IMG/VR virus record: IMGVR_UViG_3300033153_013473
Span: 1-37,817 of that record
Length of the DNA: 37,817 nt
Direction: 5' to 3' (one strand)
Source of the DNA: a virus
The notes below the pieces were generated by a model that did no database searches, was not told the DNA's origin, and saw nothing but the letters and a program-made list of their open reading frames with translations. Below, one piece after another: positions 1,649-36,866 of the stretch (its first letter is position 1; each line of letters opens with the position of its first letter). Made by a program: the position numbers and the translations under genes.

Positions 1649-1836
1649 GATTGTCTCAGCTACAAAAAGGCGATGAGGAACGGGGCATCTGCTGCCCGAG
1701 GTGCGGCTGCCGACACGTGCCGGTGCTGTACACGCGGCCGAGCATTCTGGGCAAGATCATGCGGCGCCGGGAATGCCGAAACTGCGGGCACAGGTTCACA
1801 ACATTTGAAAAAGCATCGGAGAAAATTGCGGGCTGA
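1645..1836 (+). CDS. NrdR-like zinc-ribbon DNA-binding protein
   Basis: A 63-residue protein made of a single zinc ribbon: CPRC at 17-20, an Arg-rich strand RRREC, RNC to Cys47, then RFTTFE. That last motif and the Cys spacing match the N-terminal zinc ribbon of the ribonucleotide reductase repressor NrdR, but the ATP-cone domain is absent. The start was taken at ATG 1645, overlapping the terL stop; a GTG at 1636 is possible. Stand-alone zinc ribbons in phages (for example P2 Ogr, a different family) act as transcription regulators. Two 16-bp palindromes resembling paired NrdR boxes lie 44 bp downstream, so autoregulation or control of the head operon is inferred. The fold is clear; the role is inference. 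Confidence 0.8.
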   Translation: MRLSQLQKGDEERGICCPRCGCRHVPVLYTRPSILGKIMRRRECRNCGHRFTTFEKASEKIAG

Positions 1837-1879
1837 AACGGCTACTCCGCCCCGCGAAGCCCGCCAAGAAGGGGCCAAA

Positions 1880-1933: not shown

Positions 1934-1962
1934 TTGCAACAGAACGCAAGTCCGCGCACAAT
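1934..1962 (+). promoter_or_regulatory. Candidate sigma70 promoter for the head operon leader
   Basis: TTGCAA (1934-1939), a 17-bp spacer and CACAAT (1957-1962) give four of six matches in each box. The same GGGTTGCAA -35 context with a 17-bp spacer occurs in the better promoter at 33300-33328. Transcription would start near 1969 and run into the leader hairpin and the portal-capsid genes. Confidence 0.4.
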
Positions 1963-2029
1963 GGAGATAGACAATAGGGCGACGGTGATGCCGAGTGATC
2001 TCCGGCAGATCGTGGAGCCAGGAAGAGTC

Positions 2030-2070
2030 GGGCCGTGTGGGGCCACACACTCACGCGGCCCTTTCTTTTT
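2030..2070 (+). terminator. Intrinsic terminator-like hairpin in the head operon leader
   Basis: GGGCCGTGTG (2030-2039) can pair with CACGCGGCCC (2052-2061), ten pairs with one U-G, and is followed by TTTCTTTTT (2062-2070). It lies between the palindrome pair/promoter and the first head gene. It would either end the terminase/zinc-ribbon transcript or attenuate a leader RNA of about 100 nt. The rest of the 269-bp gap 1837-2105 holds no credible gene. Confidence 0.6.
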
Positions 2071-2105
2071 GGCTTCGTGCTACAAGGCAAAGTAGAGGGA
2101 AGGCA

Positions 2106-23280: not shown

Positions 23281-23310
23281 TTGACATTGGGGAGCAGCGC
23301 CGCATATACT
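23281..23310 (+). promoter_or_regulatory. Sigma70 promoter for the short recombinase gene
   Basis: TTGACA (23281-23286), an 18-bp spacer and TATACT (23305-23310). The -35 box is a perfect match and the -10 has five of six. It points at the recombinase gene 23446-24069, leaving a leader of about 130 nt. The -10 box lies inside the left arm of a palindrome. Confidence 0.7.
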
Positions 23311-23339
23311 ACGCATTTTAGATATTCTGCGTAGTATAT
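23304..23339. promoter_or_regulatory. Perfect 12-bp inverted repeat over the -10 box (operator or recombination core)
   Basis: ATATACTACGCA (23304-23315) and TGCGTAGTATAT (23328-23339) are perfect inverted copies separated by 12 bp. They cover the -10 box and start point of the promoter, which is the position of a repressor operator. A recombination core site for the nearby recombinase is the alternative, though a 12-bp spacer is long for that. Confidence 0.65.
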
Positions 23340-23445
23340 TGGCAGACCCAGATCATACGTAAGTTGTGGCTATGGCAGGAGTTACATCAAATATAGGGCT
23401 GCCAGGCCGCCCGAATAACAAAATGCGAACTCAAGGAAGGCAAGA

Positions 23446-24069
23446 ATGCAACGCCAAAACGGGCGCCCCAAGAAGCTGCCGGAAGTGCTCGAGCGCCACG
23501 AAGTTGCTGCGATCAAGAAACAGCCGAATTGCCGTTGCCCCACGGGGCTGCGCAATCGCGCCATCCTCGAAGTGATGCACCGCGCGGGCCTTCGCGTTTC
23601 TGAGATCATCAAGCTTCGCCGACGCGACATCAAATGGAGTATTCGCACGCTCGAAGTCCGTGGGGGGAAGGGCGGCAAGGACAGACCAGTGACAATAGAG
23701 GATGTGGCTCTTGCCTGGCTAAGGGCCTGGGACGCCCAGCGCCCGACTGGCAGTACCTTCTTCACGACCTTGGCAGGCAAGCCCCTTTCGGCCCGATACC
23801 TTCAGCAACTGGTCAAACGCCTGGCACGGAAAGCAGGCATCGAGGAGCCAGAGCGTGTGACTCCGCATGTCTTCCGCCACACATGTGCCACTGAATTGCT
23901 GCGCGAGGGGTGGGACCTTCGGGAGGTCCAGACATTTTTGGGCCACGAAAACGTCGTAACCACTCAAATTTATCTTCACGTGCGGCCCGAAGCTTTGATG
24001 GCAAAGGCCCGCAGTCGGATAAACCCGGATCCGCCCCCGGGAGTGTTAGGCCCTGCGAACACAATGTGA
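23446..24069 (+). CDS. Short tyrosine recombinase (catalytic domain only)
   Basis: A 207-residue tyrosine recombinase. The active site is complete: Arg50 (GLRVSE), Lys in GGKGGKD (75-78), His141 and Arg144 (HVFRHT), His167 (LGHEN) and nucleophile Tyr176 (QIYLHV). The N-terminal arm and most of the SAM-like core-binding domain of normal phage integrases are missing, so it has the size of FimB/FimE-like invertases. AAGGAAGG lies upstream of ATG 23446. It faces the full-length integrase across a tRNA fragment. It may act in inversion, excision or multimer resolution. Confidence 0.85.
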   Translation: MQRQNGRPKKLPEVLERHEVAAIKKQPNCRCPTGLRNRAILEVMHRAGLRVSEIIKLRRRDIKWSIRTLEVRGGKGGKDRPVTIEDVALAWLRAWDAQRPTGSTFFTTLAGKPLSARYLQQLVKRLARKAGIEEPERVTPHVFRHTCATELLREGWDLREVQTFLGHENVVTTQIYLHVRPEALMAKARSRINPDPPPGVLGPANTM

Positions 24070-24193
24070 ACACCAAAGCGGGGAACATCTCCTTACTTGC
24101 CCAAGCTCGGCCAAAGCGGAGCACGTCCACAAGCTCCTATGAAGCAAAGACTTATCTTCCAAAGGCTTTGTCCGTCCGGCCATAGGACAAGAA

Positions 24194-24244
24194 CAACTTT
24201 TCGGATCCGAAGTCCGATGCTCTTTCCAGTTGAGCTACGGGCGC
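24194..24244 (-). other. attP: 5' half of a tRNA-Arg(TCG) gene, probable attP
   Basis: On the minus strand from 24244 down, the sequence begins GCGCCCGTAGCTCAACTGG. A D-arm follows, then an anticodon arm TCGGA-CTTCGGA-TCCGA with anticodon TCG. It then runs about eight more bases and stops matching. There is no T-arm and no 3' strand to pair with GCGCCCG, so the gene is not complete. It lies 31 bp beyond the stop of the minus-strand integrase, the classic place for an attachment site. The rest of 24070-24275 shows nothing. Confidence 0.65.
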
Positions 24245-24275
24245 AGGATGGCATAAACATGCCAGCATCAACGGA

Positions 24276-25400
24276 TTACGATCGTCGTTCCATTGAGACC
24301 TCCAAGCAGCGAGCACGAATTGTGAACACATGCCCCCGGTTTTCTGCGATCCGCTCTCGGCCGCGAGGCCGCAGGTGCGCGTACCTCTCTGTCGTGGCTT
24401 GTGTGGCATGATGTGCCCAGGCGGCTATGTCCGCCAGCTGCTCCCCCATCATCATCAGCCAGGAACAGAAGGCGTGGCGGAGGCTGTGCAATGTGTAATG
24501 AAGCCCGGCAGCCTGACAGCTCGTTTGCCAGTGGACCCGCACATACTGTAGCTTCGGAGGGCGTTCCGCCCATATCCGCCTTCCGAGTTTGCTAAGTTCA
24601 GGTCCCCACAAGGGACAGCCATCTGAATAGGAAATGAACCACTCGGTCCGACGCTTGGTTTCGGGCACCAGGATCCCATCTTTCTGGAAGCAATCCGGCC
24701 GAAGCGACAAAAATGAACCCCTCCGAAGGCCCGTAAGCACGAGAAACGTCCACATGGCGGCGTCGTATCGGCAAGGGGCCTTTTCGACCAGAGCTACCAT
24801 TTGTTCAGGCGATGGAAAGTGCACCAGGGTGCGGACCTGCGTGGCACGTGGCACCAATGCTACCGGATTCTCGCTGAGATCGCCATGTCGCCTGGCCCAG
24901 GCGAGCCAGGAATGTAGATGCGCGCGATATTTGTTCTGCGTGCGGGCGGAGGCCCCGGCCGCATTGAGATGCTGGAGAAATCGCTCCACGTCGCGGCAGG
25001 CGATTTCCCGAAGTGTTTCGACACCCGCATCCGAGAGGAACCGCTCGATGCCCTGCCGCACGCCTTTGATATGTTCCGGCGTACGATTCTGTCGCTGGAG
25101 CTCCTTTAGGTAACCGCCCAGGCTCTCCATGCAGGTGACGCTGGAGGGCAGGCCGAGTTTGCGGGCCTGGATCTGCGAGCGCACGGTGCGGACGTGCTGC
25201 CGCAGGTCCTCCACGGTCAGGCCGGGGCCCACAATGGCCCAGCGGCGGATGACAGGCCCATCGCGTCCGCGCGGGCGATAGCAGAGGAAATACCGCCCGG
25301 GCTCCCCCAGTGCCGTCCAGAGGCCCCATTCGAGCTTCTTCAGGCGATGGCCTCGGTAGTGCCAGATATTTCGCCTGTTGGTTTTACCTGATTTCGGCAT
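24276..25400 (-). CDS. int: Phage integrase, tyrosine recombinase (full length)
   Basis: A 374-residue integrase from ATG 25400 (an in-frame start at 25484 would overlap the upstream gene far more). An N-terminal region with RRNIWHYRGHRLKKLEWGLW probably binds arm sites. A core-binding helix bundle follows (GGYLKELQRQNRTPEHIKGV). The catalytic domain has Arg in LTGLRRGSF, HSLRHAF, WAHHA and Tyr in TTERYAHL. It would recombine attP with a host tRNA-Arg gene. The probable attP is just downstream of its stop, and the exported protein and repressor genes are upstream on the same strand. Confidence 0.9.
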   Translation of the reverse strand: MPKSGKTNRRNIWHYRGHRLKKLEWGLWTALGEPGRYFLCYRPRGRDGPVIRRWAIVGPGLTVEDLRQHVRTVRSQIQARKLGLPSSVTCMESLGGYLKELQRQNRTPEHIKGVRQGIERFLSDAGVETLREIACRDVERFLQHLNAAGASARTQNKYRAHLHSWLAWARRHGDLSENPVALVPRATQVRTLVHFPSPEQMVALVEKAPCRYDAAMWTFLVLTGLRRGSFLSLRPDCFQKDGILVPETKRRTEWFISYSDGCPLWGPELSKLGRRIWAERPPKLQYVRVHWQTSCQAAGLHYTLHSLRHAFCSWLMMMGEQLADIAAWAHHATQATTERYAHLRPRGRERIAENRGHVFTIRARCLEVSMERRS

Positions 25401-25995
25401 CGCTAAGGTAAAGATGGAGAACCCAACAGCTCCATTTGTCATTCGGTTTCGGCTTCTGGATCCGAAAGCGCTCAATTCGGCCATGAATGTTGAATTCGTC
25501 GCCTTTATCTAATCGCATGGCTGCTGCCTGTTCGCATTGATAATAGCATCGGATTTGCCACCAAGCACCATGGCACCACCCTGCGTGTGCCACGAACGGG
25601 GAGCCTTTCTTTGAAGTGTCGACCACACTGGCAACGTATTTCCCCGCTTCATTTCCATCGGGATCGACCGCAAGTAATCTGGCCGGACCGTAGATGCAAT
25701 TCCCAACTAGCTGCTGCATTCCGGCGAGATTCGGGGGCGGTAGGTCCTTGAGGCTATAGGTTCTGGTATGACGGTTGACACGCTTGTCCACAGTATCGGA
25801 ACTTGGCTTCTGATACCGCTCTAACTCAGCTTTCAGATGCTTTACTGTCTGTTCCAATTTGCTGCTTCTCTCCTCCAATGTGGTCACTCGCGCTGTCAAC
25901 TTATCAAACTCTTCCCTGGTAACCTCCTCGACTGCGGCCCCCACCAAGAACAGCCCCAGCACGCCAATGAAGCTGACCAAGATTCCCTTTCTCAC
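25384..25995 (-). CDS. Exported or membrane-anchored coiled-coil protein in the lysogeny operon
   Basis: A 203-residue protein starting at GTG 25995 behind a strong AAGGGAGG site. Residues 1-21 (MRKGILVSFIGVLGLFLVGA) form a signal peptide or anchor. Residues 24-62 are a coiled coil. From about 80 a globular part has cysteines in GNCIYGPARL, AGWCHGAWW and CYYQC and ends WVLHLYLSDAEIR. It lies between integrase and repressor, so it is probably expressed in the lysogen. Such morons often change the cell surface or block superinfection; that role is inferred. Confidence 0.7.
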   Translation of the reverse strand: MRKGILVSFIGVLGLFLVGAAVEEVTREEFDKLTARVTTLEERSSKLEQTVKHLKAELERYQKPSSDTVDKRVNRHTRTYSLKDLPPPNLAGMQQLVGNCIYGPARLLAVDPDGNEAGKYVASVVDTSKKGSPFVAHAGWCHGAWWQIRCYYQCEQAAAMRLDKGDEFNIHGRIERFRIQKPKPNDKWSCWVLHLYLSDAEIR

Positions 25996-26025: not shown

Positions 26026-26754
26026 TTACTCGAACCAGACACCTATGACGACGTAGGCCTGCCGGATGTCTTTTTCTTTGAGAAGGACGGGCGGCTGCGG
26101 GTCCACGGGATTGATTGATTCGAGCACGATCACGCGGTCGCGCCGGAACCAGCGCTTGACGAAGGTGCGGCCGTCCGTGGTTTCGAGCGCCACGATCCGG
26201 CCATTCTCAATGGTTCTGTCCGTCAGGTCTATGAACACATGCTGGCCGTGGAAGGCCAGCGGTGCCAGGCTGTCGCCATGCACCTCAACGCAGCCGATGG
26301 GCTTCTGATGGCGAAGCCATTTGCGTTCGTGCTCGAATTCGACCAGGGTGCCCCCGCTGTCATCGGCGGCGGCGCGGCCGACAACGGGGAAGATCATGAG
26401 GGCCTGCGGCTGCCGGCCGATGTCGTATTCCGGCTCGAATTCCGCAACGGCCGGGTTGCGCGGCTCGCCGGTGAGGAGCCAGTGGCCATCGCAACCGGTT
26501 TCAGCGACGACCCTTGCGAGCACCTCGGCGCCAGGAGCGAGCTCCCCACGGAGATACCCGGCGGCACTTTGCGGACTTACTCTCATGATTTCGGCAATTT
26601 TTGCGAATTTTTTTTCTGCTGGCAAGATTTGTTGCAACCTTGCCGCCAGGGCCGTTTTGGGTGATAGGTCCTTTCTGCTCGCGGGCCTTCCAGAATCAGA
26701 ATCCTGTCGTAAGCCTCTTGACTTGTCTCCAGATATTGATTTAACATTTCTCAC
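26026..26754 (-). CDS. CI/LexA-like prophage repressor with S24 peptidase domain
   Basis: A 242-residue repressor from GTG 26754 (GGAGG nine bases upstream). Residues about 33-75 form a helix-turn-helix (FAKIAEIMRVSPQSAAGYLR). Residues 118-240 form an S24 autoprotease with Ser162 (VHGDSLAP) and Lys200 (GRTFVKRW). The likely self-cleavage region is VVGRAAADDSGG. SOS-triggered, RecA-stimulated cleavage would relieve repression and start the lytic cycle, as in the family. It is transcribed leftwards, divergent from the early genes. Confidence 0.9.
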   Translation of the reverse strand: MRNVKSISGDKSRGLRQDSDSGRPASRKDLSPKTALAARLQQILPAEKKFAKIAEIMRVSPQSAAGYLRGELAPGAEVLARVVAETGCDGHWLLTGEPRNPAVAEFEPEYDIGRQPQALMIFPVVGRAAADDSGGTLVEFEHERKWLRHQKPIGCVEVHGDSLAPLAFHGQHVFIDLTDRTIENGRIVALETTDGRTFVKRWFRRDRVIVLESINPVDPQPPVLLKEKDIRQAYVVIGVWFE

Positions 26755-26794
26755 AGTTCAAGACCTCCGCGTGCGATCCAGGGGAAGGGAGGTA

Positions 26795-26859
26795 AGGCAA
26801 GTGGGGAGGCCAAGCCTTAGACACCTCAGAGCACAGGTGGCTTCCGCGGCCACTTGCCT
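26795..26859. repeat. 10-bp inverted repeat in the immunity region
   Basis: AGGCAAGTGG (26795-26804) and CCACTTGCCT (26850-26859) are perfect inverted copies 45 bp apart, in the leader between the repressor gene and its candidate promoter. They could be operator half-sites or an RNA stem in the leader of the repressor mRNA. Confidence 0.45.
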
Positions 26860-26916
26860 GGAGCCGATCGCCGCTCGCACGCCGGCGTTCGGCTCTTCCT
26901 TTTTTGCACGGCATAT

Positions 26917-32195: not shown

Positions 32196-33296
32196 ATGTC
32201 ACTGGCCTTGACGAAACGCATATGGGAGCGGCGCGATCTGCGGCCTACTACGACGCTGGTGGCGCTGGCCCTGGCCGACCGCTGCGCTCAAAGGCGGGCA
32301 GAGCCTGATTGCTACCAGTGTTGGCCTGCGGTCGAGACGCTGGCGGCGCAATGCGGCGTCGGTTGTAGCACCGTTTATCGGGCTCTGCGGGACCTGCGCG
32401 ATCGCGGGCTGCTGCACGTGCTCCAGCGGGGCCCCAAGAGCAATCTCTATTGCCTGGTGCCGTTGGCCTACGGCGGCAAGGCTCCCCCGGGCGTTTGTGA
32501 GCACTGTGAGAAGGCGCCCGAAGACGCTCCATGCCGCGCAAAAGCCCTGTCAAATTGGGAGGGCTTTTGCGGGAAGGCCAAGAAAGCCCTGTCAAATCGG
32601 GAGGCGAGCCGTGTCAAATTGAGAGGGCTTTTGCCCTCGAAAGCGTCCCCAAGTCCCAAGCCATTCAAGACTTCCGACGAAGCTGCCGAAGCGCATCCGT
32701 TAAAAGAACCGGTACGTACAAAGCCTTCATTCAGTCGGGTACAGTACAGTACTCTTAAACAAGAAGTGCGAGCAAGCCCGAGAAGGAAGGAATGCTTTGA
32801 AGAAACGGCAAGAAACGGCCACGATCCGGCGGCGATCCGGGCGCGGGAGGCGCTGCGAAAGCGGGGGCACCTGGCAGTGCCGACGGGAGTCTACATGCCG
32901 GTGGCCGTACGGCGGCTGTTGGAGGGAACGAACGGGCAGATACCGCCAACGACGCGCCTGGCATTCGAGGGCCAGATGTGGGACTGCGCGGCGCAACATG
33001 GGCTGGAACCGCTCCAGCGGGCATTGCGAAAGCTCGCGGTATGCCTGCCGTCCAGCCCGGGGGCCATTGCGCGCTACTTCGAGCCCATCTTGCGAGAAAG
33101 CGTCGGAGCTTGGCGGGTTGAGAAGGCCCAGGAGGCCGAATGGGAACAGAACCGCCGCGCGACGGAGGCGCGCCAAAAGGAGCTGTGGGAGCAGAGTCCG
33201 GAGCGGCGAAAGGCGGCCGAAAGGTTTCTGCGCCGGATGCGGGAACGCCTGCATGTCGAATCTGCATCGAGTAATGATAAATCATCACTGGAGTGA
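32196..33296 (+). CDS. Replication initiator-like protein (winged helix)
   Basis: A 366-residue protein. Residues about 1-95 form a winged helix of the kind in phage O-like initiators (RPTTTLVALALADRCAQRRA, VETLAAQCGVGCSTVYRALR). A Ser/Lys/Pro-rich linker follows, then a helical C-terminal domain (AAQHGLEPLQRALRKLAVCL, FLRRMRERLHVES). The linker DNA contains three phased direct repeats and an 11-bp inverted repeat, as the lambda O gene contains the origin iterons. It would bind these and recruit host replication proteins, since no phage helicase or loader is seen. Confidence 0.75.
   Translation: MSLALTKRIWERRDLRPTTTLVALALADRCAQRRAEPDCYQCWPAVETLAAQCGVGCSTVYRALRDLRDRGLLHVLQRGPKSNLYCLVPLAYGGKAPPGVCEHCEKAPEDAPCRAKALSNWEGFCGKAKKALSNREASRVKLRGLLPSKASPSPKPFKTSDEAAEAHPLKEPVRTKPSFSRVQYSTLKQEVRASPRRKECFEETARNGHDPAAIRAREALRKRGHLAVPTGVYMPVAVRRLLEGTNGQIPPTTRLAFEGQMWDCAAQHGLEPLQRALRKLAVCLPSSPGAIARYFEPILRESVGAWRVEKAQEAEWEQNRRATEARQKELWEQSPERRKAAERFLRRMRERLHVESASSNDKSSLE
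32538..32626. other. ori: Candidate replication origin: three iterons and an inverted repeat
   Basis: Three 19-bp direct repeats with core TGTCAAATyGrGAGG lie at 32544-32562, 32586-32604 and 32608-32626, spaced 42 and 22 bp, close to whole helical turns. The first sits in GCAAAAGCCCT (32538-32548) / AGGGCTTTTGC (32560-32570), a perfect inverted repeat. The region 32700-32770 behind them is relatively AT-rich with GTACAGTACAGTAC. All lie inside the initiator gene linker. Confidence 0.65.
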
Positions 33297-33299
33297 GGG

Positions 33300-33328
33300 T
33301 TGCAATAACCTCAGGCTGAGCCTATAAT
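33300..33328 (+). promoter_or_regulatory. Sigma70 promoter of a structured small RNA
   Basis: TTGCAA (33300-33305), 17 bp, then a perfect TATAAT (33323-33328). Transcription should start at about 33334-33336, where a 9-bp closing stem of the RNA begins. The -35 region GGGTTGCAA matches the one at 1931-1939. Confidence 0.75.
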
Positions 33329-33335
33329 AGGGACA

Positions 33336-33484
33336 GTGCCTGCCTCGATTCCCCGGGGAAATCGGGCACTATGGCAGGCAGGCTGTCCGCGCTGATCACG
33401 CGGGCGTAAGGGAGTCGGATTGAACCACGGTCTGGTCGGAGTCTCGACCCGAGCAGGGCAGGCACGACCGGGCCTTTTTGTTTT
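33336..33484 (+). ncRNA. Independently transcribed structured RNA (about 145 nt)
   Basis: GTGCCTGCC (33336-33344) pairs perfectly with GGCAGGCAC (33457-33465), or alternatively with GGCAGGC (33373-33379). Inner stems are CGATTCC...GGAAATCG (33346-33366) and CTCG-ACC-CGAG (33443-33453). It begins at the start point of a strong promoter and ends in an intrinsic terminator. No open frame of note crosses it. It lies between the initiator and Gam-like genes, where lambdoid phages may also carry small RNAs (compare oop). Function unknown. Confidence 0.7.
33429..33484 (+). terminator. Intrinsic terminator of the small RNA
   Basis: GGTCTGGTCG (33429-33438) pairs with CGACCGGGCC (33465-33474), ten pairs with two U-G, followed by TTTTTGTTTT (33475-33484). 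The loop carries the CTCGACCCGAG hairpin and the 3' arm of the alternative closing stem. Confidence 0.7.
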
Positions 33485-33519
33485 GGGGATAGCAAGCCAC
33501 ATAAAAGGGGAGAGCGAAC

Positions 33520-34074
33520 ATGGACCGTGCAGGGACGGTGATCGTGGCACTCAGCAGGGTTGAACGGCTTCTGCTGCGGATCGGGCGCAAGCAGCAGGAA
33601 CTGGATGCACTCCAGGCCCAAATGGATGAGCGGATAGCGGCGGTACGAGCGGAGTATGGTGAGCGCCTCCAGGGGCGGGCGGAGACGATCACTGCGCTCG
33701 AACGGGAACTGAATGAGCTATGTGAGGCGGAGCGCGGCACTTTACTGGACGGCGATGCCCGGAGCATTGAGACGCTGTTCGGCCGGGTGGGCTGGCGGAA
33801 AGGGCGGGACAGCATAAAGCTGAGGGACGAGGTATCTGAAGACGAAGTGGCCGGAAAGCTTGCAAGGCGGGGCTACGATGCGCTGGTCAAGGTGAAGCGG
33901 ACCGTGAGCCGGTCGGCGGTGCTGGCGGCACTGAAAGCGGGACGGATCACGGAGAGAGTTTTGAGTGCAGTGGGACTGCTGCTCGAGCCGGGCGAGGACA
34001 GGTGGTACTACGAGGTGAACGCATCGGCGGTGCAGCAGTACCAGGCGGGAGACGACGACAGCAGGGGAGCCTGA
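33520..34074 (+). CDS. gam: Mu Gam-like host nuclease inhibitor
   Basis: A 184-residue protein with the Gam layout: an N-terminal basic start, a long coiled coil (GRKQQELDALQAQMDERIAA, ITALERELNELCEAERGTLL) and a C-terminal Ku-like region with FGRVGWRKGRDSIKL. Mu Gam binds DNA ends and protects them from exonucleases such as RecBCD. It is the first gene after the small RNA and uses ATAAAAGGGGAGAGC-type upstream sequence as ribosome site. Confidence 0.8.
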   Translation: MDRAGTVIVALSRVERLLLRIGRKQQELDALQAQMDERIAAVRAEYGERLQGRAETITALERELNELCEAERGTLLDGDARSIETLFGRVGWRKGRDSIKLRDEVSEDEVAGKLARRGYDALVKVKRTVSRSAVLAALKAGRITERVLSAVGLLLEPGEDRWYYEVNASAVQQYQAGDDDSRGA

Positions 34075-34442: not shown

Positions 34443-34565
34443 TGGCCTTTCCATGGTTTGAAAAATGGGTCCTGGCTCAATAAGCAATTCTGCTGAGGGT
34501 GCCCAGAACAACCGCGGCGGCAAGCAGAGTTTGTTTGTGTGAAAAAAAATCCCGGAGGTGGACAG

Positions 34566-36504: not shown

Positions 36505-36720
36505 TCAGCGTGCCAGTTCGAACTTGCCTCTGGCGGCCTTGCGGAAGCGGGCCTCATCGCCCTTCTTCTGTATCTCCCGCAGGATGGCCGCGTAGACCGT
36601 GCCCGCCAGCGTCTTGCCGTCCGCCGCTGGCGTCTTGCCTTCGGACTGGCAGTAGCCCTTCTCGAAGGCACGCGTGATGATGGGCTGAAAAGATGCTAGG
36701 AAGGATAGAAACGATGACAT
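36505..36720 (-). CDS. Small hypothetical minus-strand protein
   Basis: A 71-residue frame from ATG 36720 (ATG 36777 is in frame with GGAGG close by, but runs over the terminase small gene region). It reads [20 protein letters not shown] and [20 protein letters not shown] with good codon character, and its stop is just ahead of the GC hairpin. Not recognised. Confidence 0.45.
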
Positions 36721-36866
36721 GACCGATGTGGGAAGGCGAACGGCGGGGGCCGCGAGACCCCAAGCCACCAGAGCCATCGCCTCCGGAGGCCTTTATTCGC
36801 CGCTCGCCGCCGCGAGTCCCCTTCATTGTAAGAGAAATCGGGTGCGGGGAAAAGGACATCATCTCA

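Follow-up and report, generated by a model that had tools for sequence, protein, structure and literature searches.

What fills the 223-nt gap between the replication initiator and gam genes of this virus, and does it act by itself or on the genes behind it? The window, that is, the whole stretch of DNA analysed here, is a 37.8-kb virus record (37,817 nt), which we read as a planctomycete prophage. Viral contigs supplied 330 relatives of its terminase and genome contigs 142, most of these 142 from Planctomycetota. The original prediction placed in the gap a complete small RNA gene, lying between initiator and Gam-like genes. Profile matches confirmed both neighbours (Table 1). The initiator stop codon lies 3 nt 5′ of a −35 box at position 33300, after which we call the element the 33300 unit. 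Gene order around the unit is co-directional, all on one strand, and gam is followed by a small zinc-ribbon gene and then a methylase gene.

Table 1. Positions of the features in the window and the basis of each assignment
Feature	Position	Strand	Basis
Lambda O-like replication initiator	32196..33296	+	phrog_391, E 1.5e-13
Sigma70-type promoter TTGCAA-N17-TATAAT	33300..33328	+	10/12 score
Predicted transcript, start point to end of U-run, about 150 nt	33335..33484	+	Position relative to promoter and terminator
9-bp stem, crosses terminator	33336-33344/33457-33465	+	0.2% of shuffles
P1-like helix, 33377-33379 and 33382-33388 with 33487-33493 and 33496-33498	33377..33498	+	-17.5 kcal/mol
P2-type hairpin, 8 bp, loop CUGAUCA at 33392-33398	33384..33406	+	Family signature
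Intrinsic terminator hairpin with TTTTTGTTTT	33429..33484	+	Fold computation, shuffles
Inner alternative hairpin GGUCG/CGACC	33434-33438/33445-33449	+	Alternative to the terminator hairpin
Mu Gam-like gene	33520..34074	+	Pfam PF07352, E 6.5e-24
Promoter-like TTGCAA-N17-CACAAT	1934..1962	+	Ahead of copy before gpW-like gene and portal
Family RNA copy	1976..2081	+	R1 55.3 bits, E 1.2e-11

The promoter-terminator unit ahead of gam

The promoter was found where the original prediction had placed it, with the −35 box at 33300-33305 and the −10 box at 33323-33328. TATAAT occurs nowhere else on the plus strand of the window. Promoters scoring at least 10/12 with a perfect −10 box are expected 0.13 times per window strand, and thus about 8e-4 times in the 223-nt gap, which puts the match beyond chance. 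The claim that the unit lacks coding potential also held for long frames. The RNA contains one 12-codon ORF (MAGRLSALITRA, window 33371-33409) with no clear ribosome site, which may encode a leader peptide.

The predicted terminator was likewise recovered. Its stem (33429-33438/33465-33474) has 10 bp including two G-U pairs, with a free energy of -27.5 kcal/mol, and is followed by the U-run at 33475-33484. No other site on either strand of the window is this strong; dinucleotide-shuffled windows contained 0.03 weaker terminators each, and none of 60 reached -25 kcal/mol. Among the features of the 33300 unit, the terminator departs most strongly from the dinucleotide shuffles, and the z-score of the overall fold is modest (-1.84). 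The gam ATG lies 35 nt 3′ of the U-run. This interval contains a good ribosome site (AGGGGAGAG) and, in our promoter scan, no promoter, so expression of gam must cross the terminator. The gene could be reached through it either from the 33300 promoter or from the early operon.

The 5′ arm GTGCCTGCC of the 9-bp stem has its perfect complement GGCAGGCAC at the position originally proposed. A 9-bp Watson-Crick stem appears at the 5′ end in 0.2% of dinucleotide shuffles, and anywhere in 4.1%. The claim of two exclusive folds for this arm needs correcting. Alternative partners do exist (GGCAGGC at 33373-33379 and at 33377-33383), but the 9-bp stem crosses the terminator helix, because its 3′ arm sits inside the terminator loop and C33465 is common to both. 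Probabilities computed for the full-length RNA are 0.996 for the terminator and 5.5e-6 for the 9-bp stem, and imposing the stem carries a penalty of 9 kcal/mol owing to this placement of its 3′ arm. Only in transcripts that end at about 33465-33469 does the 9-bp stem give the lowest energy, and the proposed switch could therefore act only co-transcriptionally. In the computed folds, a switch between the 9-bp stem and 33373-33379 appears possible and weakly populated. A second bistable pair sets GGUCG with CGACC against the terminator; its counterpart in the relatives described below is an alternative hairpin with covarying pairs.

Direct relatives of the unit were sought widely. Sequence homologues were absent from phage records, 40 related viral records, and 12 host genomes, and no genuine one was present in 396 host-order genomes, where the two matches fell in an oxidoreductase gene and a tRNA flank and were set aside as chance. 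An exact 18-mer across the terminator was absent from the viral contigs. Of the 17 contigs with a promoter-plus-CTGATCA pattern, none had a stem longer than 2 bp. Some 75 relatives showed no comparable promoter-terminator pair within the roughly 4.5 kb that precede their methylase gene. Across 4.77 Mb of related DNA, counting both strands together, only one more terminator followed a promoter-like site, in L007 ahead of the portal gene. The Rfam search named as a check in the original prediction gave no family above its gathering score for the 33300 unit. We also considered and rejected 6S RNA, tRNA, tmRNA, ctRNA (E 2.4), and a retron msr-msd, no reverse transcriptase having been noticed nearby. 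For the neighbouring genes, no Gam and initiator relatives were found in the viral contigs, and no Gam relatives in phage records or the 396 host-order genomes; a Pfam search for Gam in 40 related records gave no match, and neither did its controls, so that it does not establish absence.

Several further elements were observed around these genes. Three iteron-like repeats (AGCCcTGTCAAATtGgGAG, window 32543-32634) lie within the O-like initiator gene, as in the lambda ori, and likely mark the replication origin, some 0.7 kb 5′ of the 33300 unit. A conserved non-coding element, GGTACTTCC ... CCGCGGGAACAG ... CATAGGCAGAGTTTGTTTTGCGTGTCCG (window 34484-34540), is found mostly just before the ParB-methylase gene, and its TTCCC and GGGAA are able to pair. 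It also occurs upstream of the methylase gene in L054, L058, L059, L060, L061, L081, L097, L104, L105, L106, and L122, and likewise in L018 and L144. Three loci compared with Rfam gave no match. The element might act as a leader, mark a packaging site, or bind a protein. Between the methylase and terminase genes, a small ORF (36505-36777, minus strand) is conserved in 100 related loci and has no Pfam or PHROGs match. Farther upstream, a strong promoter, TTGACA-N18-TATACT (11/12), precedes a tyrosine recombinase gene (23446-24069, plus strand); a second recombinase (24276-25484) is encoded on the opposite strand, with a weak Rfam tRNA match (24171-24244) between the two. The region 23281-25484 is a possible attachment site.

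A covarying leader RNA in related prophages

A terminator scan of the relatives first revealed recurring CTGATCA-hairpin units 3′ of the terminase gene. The RNA of this family is about 106 nt long and folds into a three-way junction with four covarying helices. P1 (CGGGCGA/UCGCCCG) has its 3′ half past the U-run and can thus form only in read-through RNA. P2 is an 8-bp hairpin with a palindromic loop, usually CUGAUCA. P3 (GCCAA...GGCC...GGCC UUUUU UUGGC) is a long bistable hairpin with a U-tract; the alternative hairpin, formed by its 5′ strand and loop sequence, is 98.8% paired, and all five of its pairs covary.

The family was aligned by hand, since MAFFT placed P1 wrongly. The 46-member alignment, which was fitted to the model and contains a few antisense or partial matches, has 33 pairs, 92% of them standard and 28 changed on both sides. 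None of 500 shuffles scored as high on any measure, and slid controls collapsed. The hand alignment and RNAalifold's own prediction (21-member alignment) agree with this structure. No counterpart was found in Rfam 15 (4227 families). The paired mutations strongly support an undescribed folded RNA.

Model R1 was trained on nine sequences, all from other phages, with the window left out, and recovered further copies in viral and genome loci; model E-values given here are approximate, as the tool itself warns. The family RNA was present in 15 of the 396 host-order genomes, and a gpW-like and/or portal gene adjoins it at 17 of the 20 loci from those genomes. The RNA lies mostly between the terminase and portal genes. 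In the isolate Planctomycetales bacterium ZRK34, the locus of a related prophage (L097) showed no copy; the lysogens so far seen to carry the RNA are metagenome-assembled genomes. Three copies occur in one phage: one precedes gpW-portal, another protease-capsid, and the third a gene that we take, from sequence and position, to encode the major tail protein. Promoter-like TTGCRA boxes stand directly 5′ of many copies, and relatives show TTGCGA-N16-TACGAT. The palindromic core of the P2 loop is mostly GATC, with AGCT in three members and TGCA in one; L190 is an exception, a clear member whose loop is not palindromic, and L191 is probably a spurious match. The U-tract is broken in L055, L101, L136, and L139, so termination is not the function that the whole family conserves. 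Seven metagenome-assembled genomes (L099, L110, L128, L136, L143, L151, and L161) also carry prophages of this group, which apart from them is planctomycete; their titles name Chloroflexota, Leptolyngbya, Nevskiales, Cyanobacteria, Caulobacterales, Actinomycetes, and Pseudomonadales, which likely reflects mis-binning or mislabelling.

R1, blind to the window, recovered a copy there at 1976-2081, with P1 at 1976-1982/2075-2081, P2 at 1987-1994/2002-2009 (loop GUGAUCU), and P3 at 2017-2073. An apparent zinc-ribbon ORF (window 1649-1843, CPRCG...CRNCGHRF) lies directly 3′ of the terminase gene, and relatives such as L091 and L092 have a similar sequence in the same place. Elsewhere in the window, 26718-26914 contains a promoter-like TTGACT-N18-TAACAT that overlaps the start of the divergent CI/LexA-like repressor ORF (26026-26754, minus strand), followed 3′ by a leader with a hairpin and CTTCCTTTTTTGC. 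By its sequence, this may be a third arrangement of promoter, leader, and terminator, placed where the early operon begins.

The 33300 unit shares parts with this family. Its promoter and that at 1934 have TTGCAA and the 17-nt spacer in common. Its P2-type hairpin carries the CUGAUCA loop, and such an 8-bp hairpin occurred once in 20 Mb of random sequence; the loop searched for was fixed by the family before this rate was measured, and the p-values for the shared parts are post hoc. Its terminator and the GGUCG/CGACC hairpin form a bistable pair, as in P3, with a 15-nt insertion in the loop. The P1-like helix was equalled in 0.42% of shuffles (p 0.004), but it competes with the outer P2-type pairs. 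The loop insertion and a 5′ hairpin region are extras of the 33300 unit and are mutually complementary. Across the whole window, neither R1 (33375-33434, 14.7 bits, E 0.16) nor R2 (13.1 bits, E 0.56) gave a significant match to it. In the 223-nt gap alone, which is a legitimate search space because the gap had been named beforehand, R1 reached E 9e-4, with a fit mainly to P2. The shared parts suggest that the 33300 unit is probably a divergent relative of the family; we do not file it as a member, because the models failed to recognise it across the window.

Cis leader or stand-alone RNA

We favour, at about even confidence, the reading that 33300-33498 comprises a promoter and a structured leader whose conditional terminator controls the gam and methylase genes. 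By default, polymerase would start at about 33335, make a 150-nt RNA, and halt at 33484; only read-through would allow expression of gam and of the small zinc-ribbon and methylase genes behind it. Read-through might come from a leaky terminator, or from an antitermination event that shifts the RNA to the alternative hairpin or alters the polymerase. Neither a Q-like nor an N-like gene was identified. The 33300 unit would then be a divergent early-region relative of the covarying leader that heads blocks of late genes in this family of prophages. We infer transcription, termination, read-through control, and the common descent of the 33300 and 1976 units from sequence. Related leaders recur ahead of several gene blocks in a single phage, which speaks for control in cis. 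The "complete small RNA gene" of the original prediction thus stands as a promoter-RNA-terminator unit, but a stand-alone gene appears less likely than a cis element. Of the functions suggested for it, a cis switch ahead of gam fits the position of gam and the family leaders, but the particular switch named is the weakly populated one; control of replication and an anti-host role found no support beyond position.

A stand-alone RNA would act in trans, the 150-nt terminated transcript pairing with other RNAs or binding a protein while gam is expressed by leakage. The complete promoter-RNA-terminator anatomy, the strong fold, and the missing ORF would suit it. We nevertheless consider it rather unlikely: the best antisense matches in the phage genome are 12 nt long, which is chance level, so that no target is convincing; no conservation as a gene was seen in the phage, viral, and host-order sequences searched; and the unit sits tightly within the gam leader, while the related elements are leaders at several places in one phage. 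A plain promoter-terminator cassette would merely insulate two early blocks, with neither regulated switching nor kinship to the family. Phages often put promoters and terminators at module borders, the PeSL cassettes of T4-like phages being one example, and R1 and R2 both miss the unit window-wide. Against such a spacer, which we judge unlikely, stand the exact CUGAUCA hairpin of 8 bp, a coincidence of about 1e-5 in 150 nt, a −35 box and spacer length shared with the 1934 copy, and a terminator that is bistable like that of the family.

The palindromic P2 loops raise two other readings. In one, the unit and the family would be self-associating leaders that couple early and late terminator read-through to transcript concentration; loops that change from one palindrome to another would let leaders of different operons pair, here by a GAUC/GAUC contact between the 33300 and 1976 units. 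We regard this as quite doubtful. In the other, the RNA would associate through kissing loops as a structural component of the particle or of packaging, by analogy with the phi29 packaging RNA. Nearly all family loops stay palindromic through change (GATC, AGCT in three, TGCA in one), and the main copy lies between terminase and portal. The copies before capsid, tail, and gam genes suit a cis role better, however, and the clear member L190 lacks a palindromic loop, which makes a structural RNA highly improbable.

Significance and comparison with known systems

Little work seems to have been done on gene control in Planctomycetota phages, and a covarying leader at several block heads offers a direct handle on their regulation, probably by antitermination; its palindromic loops suggest RNA-RNA contact, and the 33300 unit indicates that a related arrangement may also precede early genes.

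GOLLD and ROOL are prophage RNAs whose kissing loops mediate multimers (PMC12286853). Like the present element, they are structured prophage RNAs without assigned function. They differ in their much greater length, in their location near tRNA islands, and in having Rfam entries, whereas the present element matches none of 4227 Rfam families. The PeSL cassettes of T4-like phages are short repeated promoter-hairpin units between genes; the family RNA differs in its length of about 106 nt and its four covarying helices.

The late leader at lambda pR′-tR′ is a short terminated RNA (194 nt) until Q antitermination opens the operon. As proposed here, a promoter with a short terminated RNA precedes an operon; in contrast, gam and a methylase gene rather than lysis genes follow here, and one phage has several leaders. 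No Q-like gene or qut site was identified. In HK022, putL and putR are about 70 nt each, form two stem-loops, and lie near early promoters in operons with terminators (PMC9378689). Two related structured RNAs per phage are common to both systems. The put RNAs lie upstream of the terminators that they suppress without a phage protein, and have no built-in U-tract, whereas here the hairpin itself would be the terminator; compared by description only, the RNA here folds as a three-way junction, and late genes follow the clear members of the family. By analogy, the logic that we favour resembles that of lambda pR′-tR′ or HK022 put, and we claim membership in neither.
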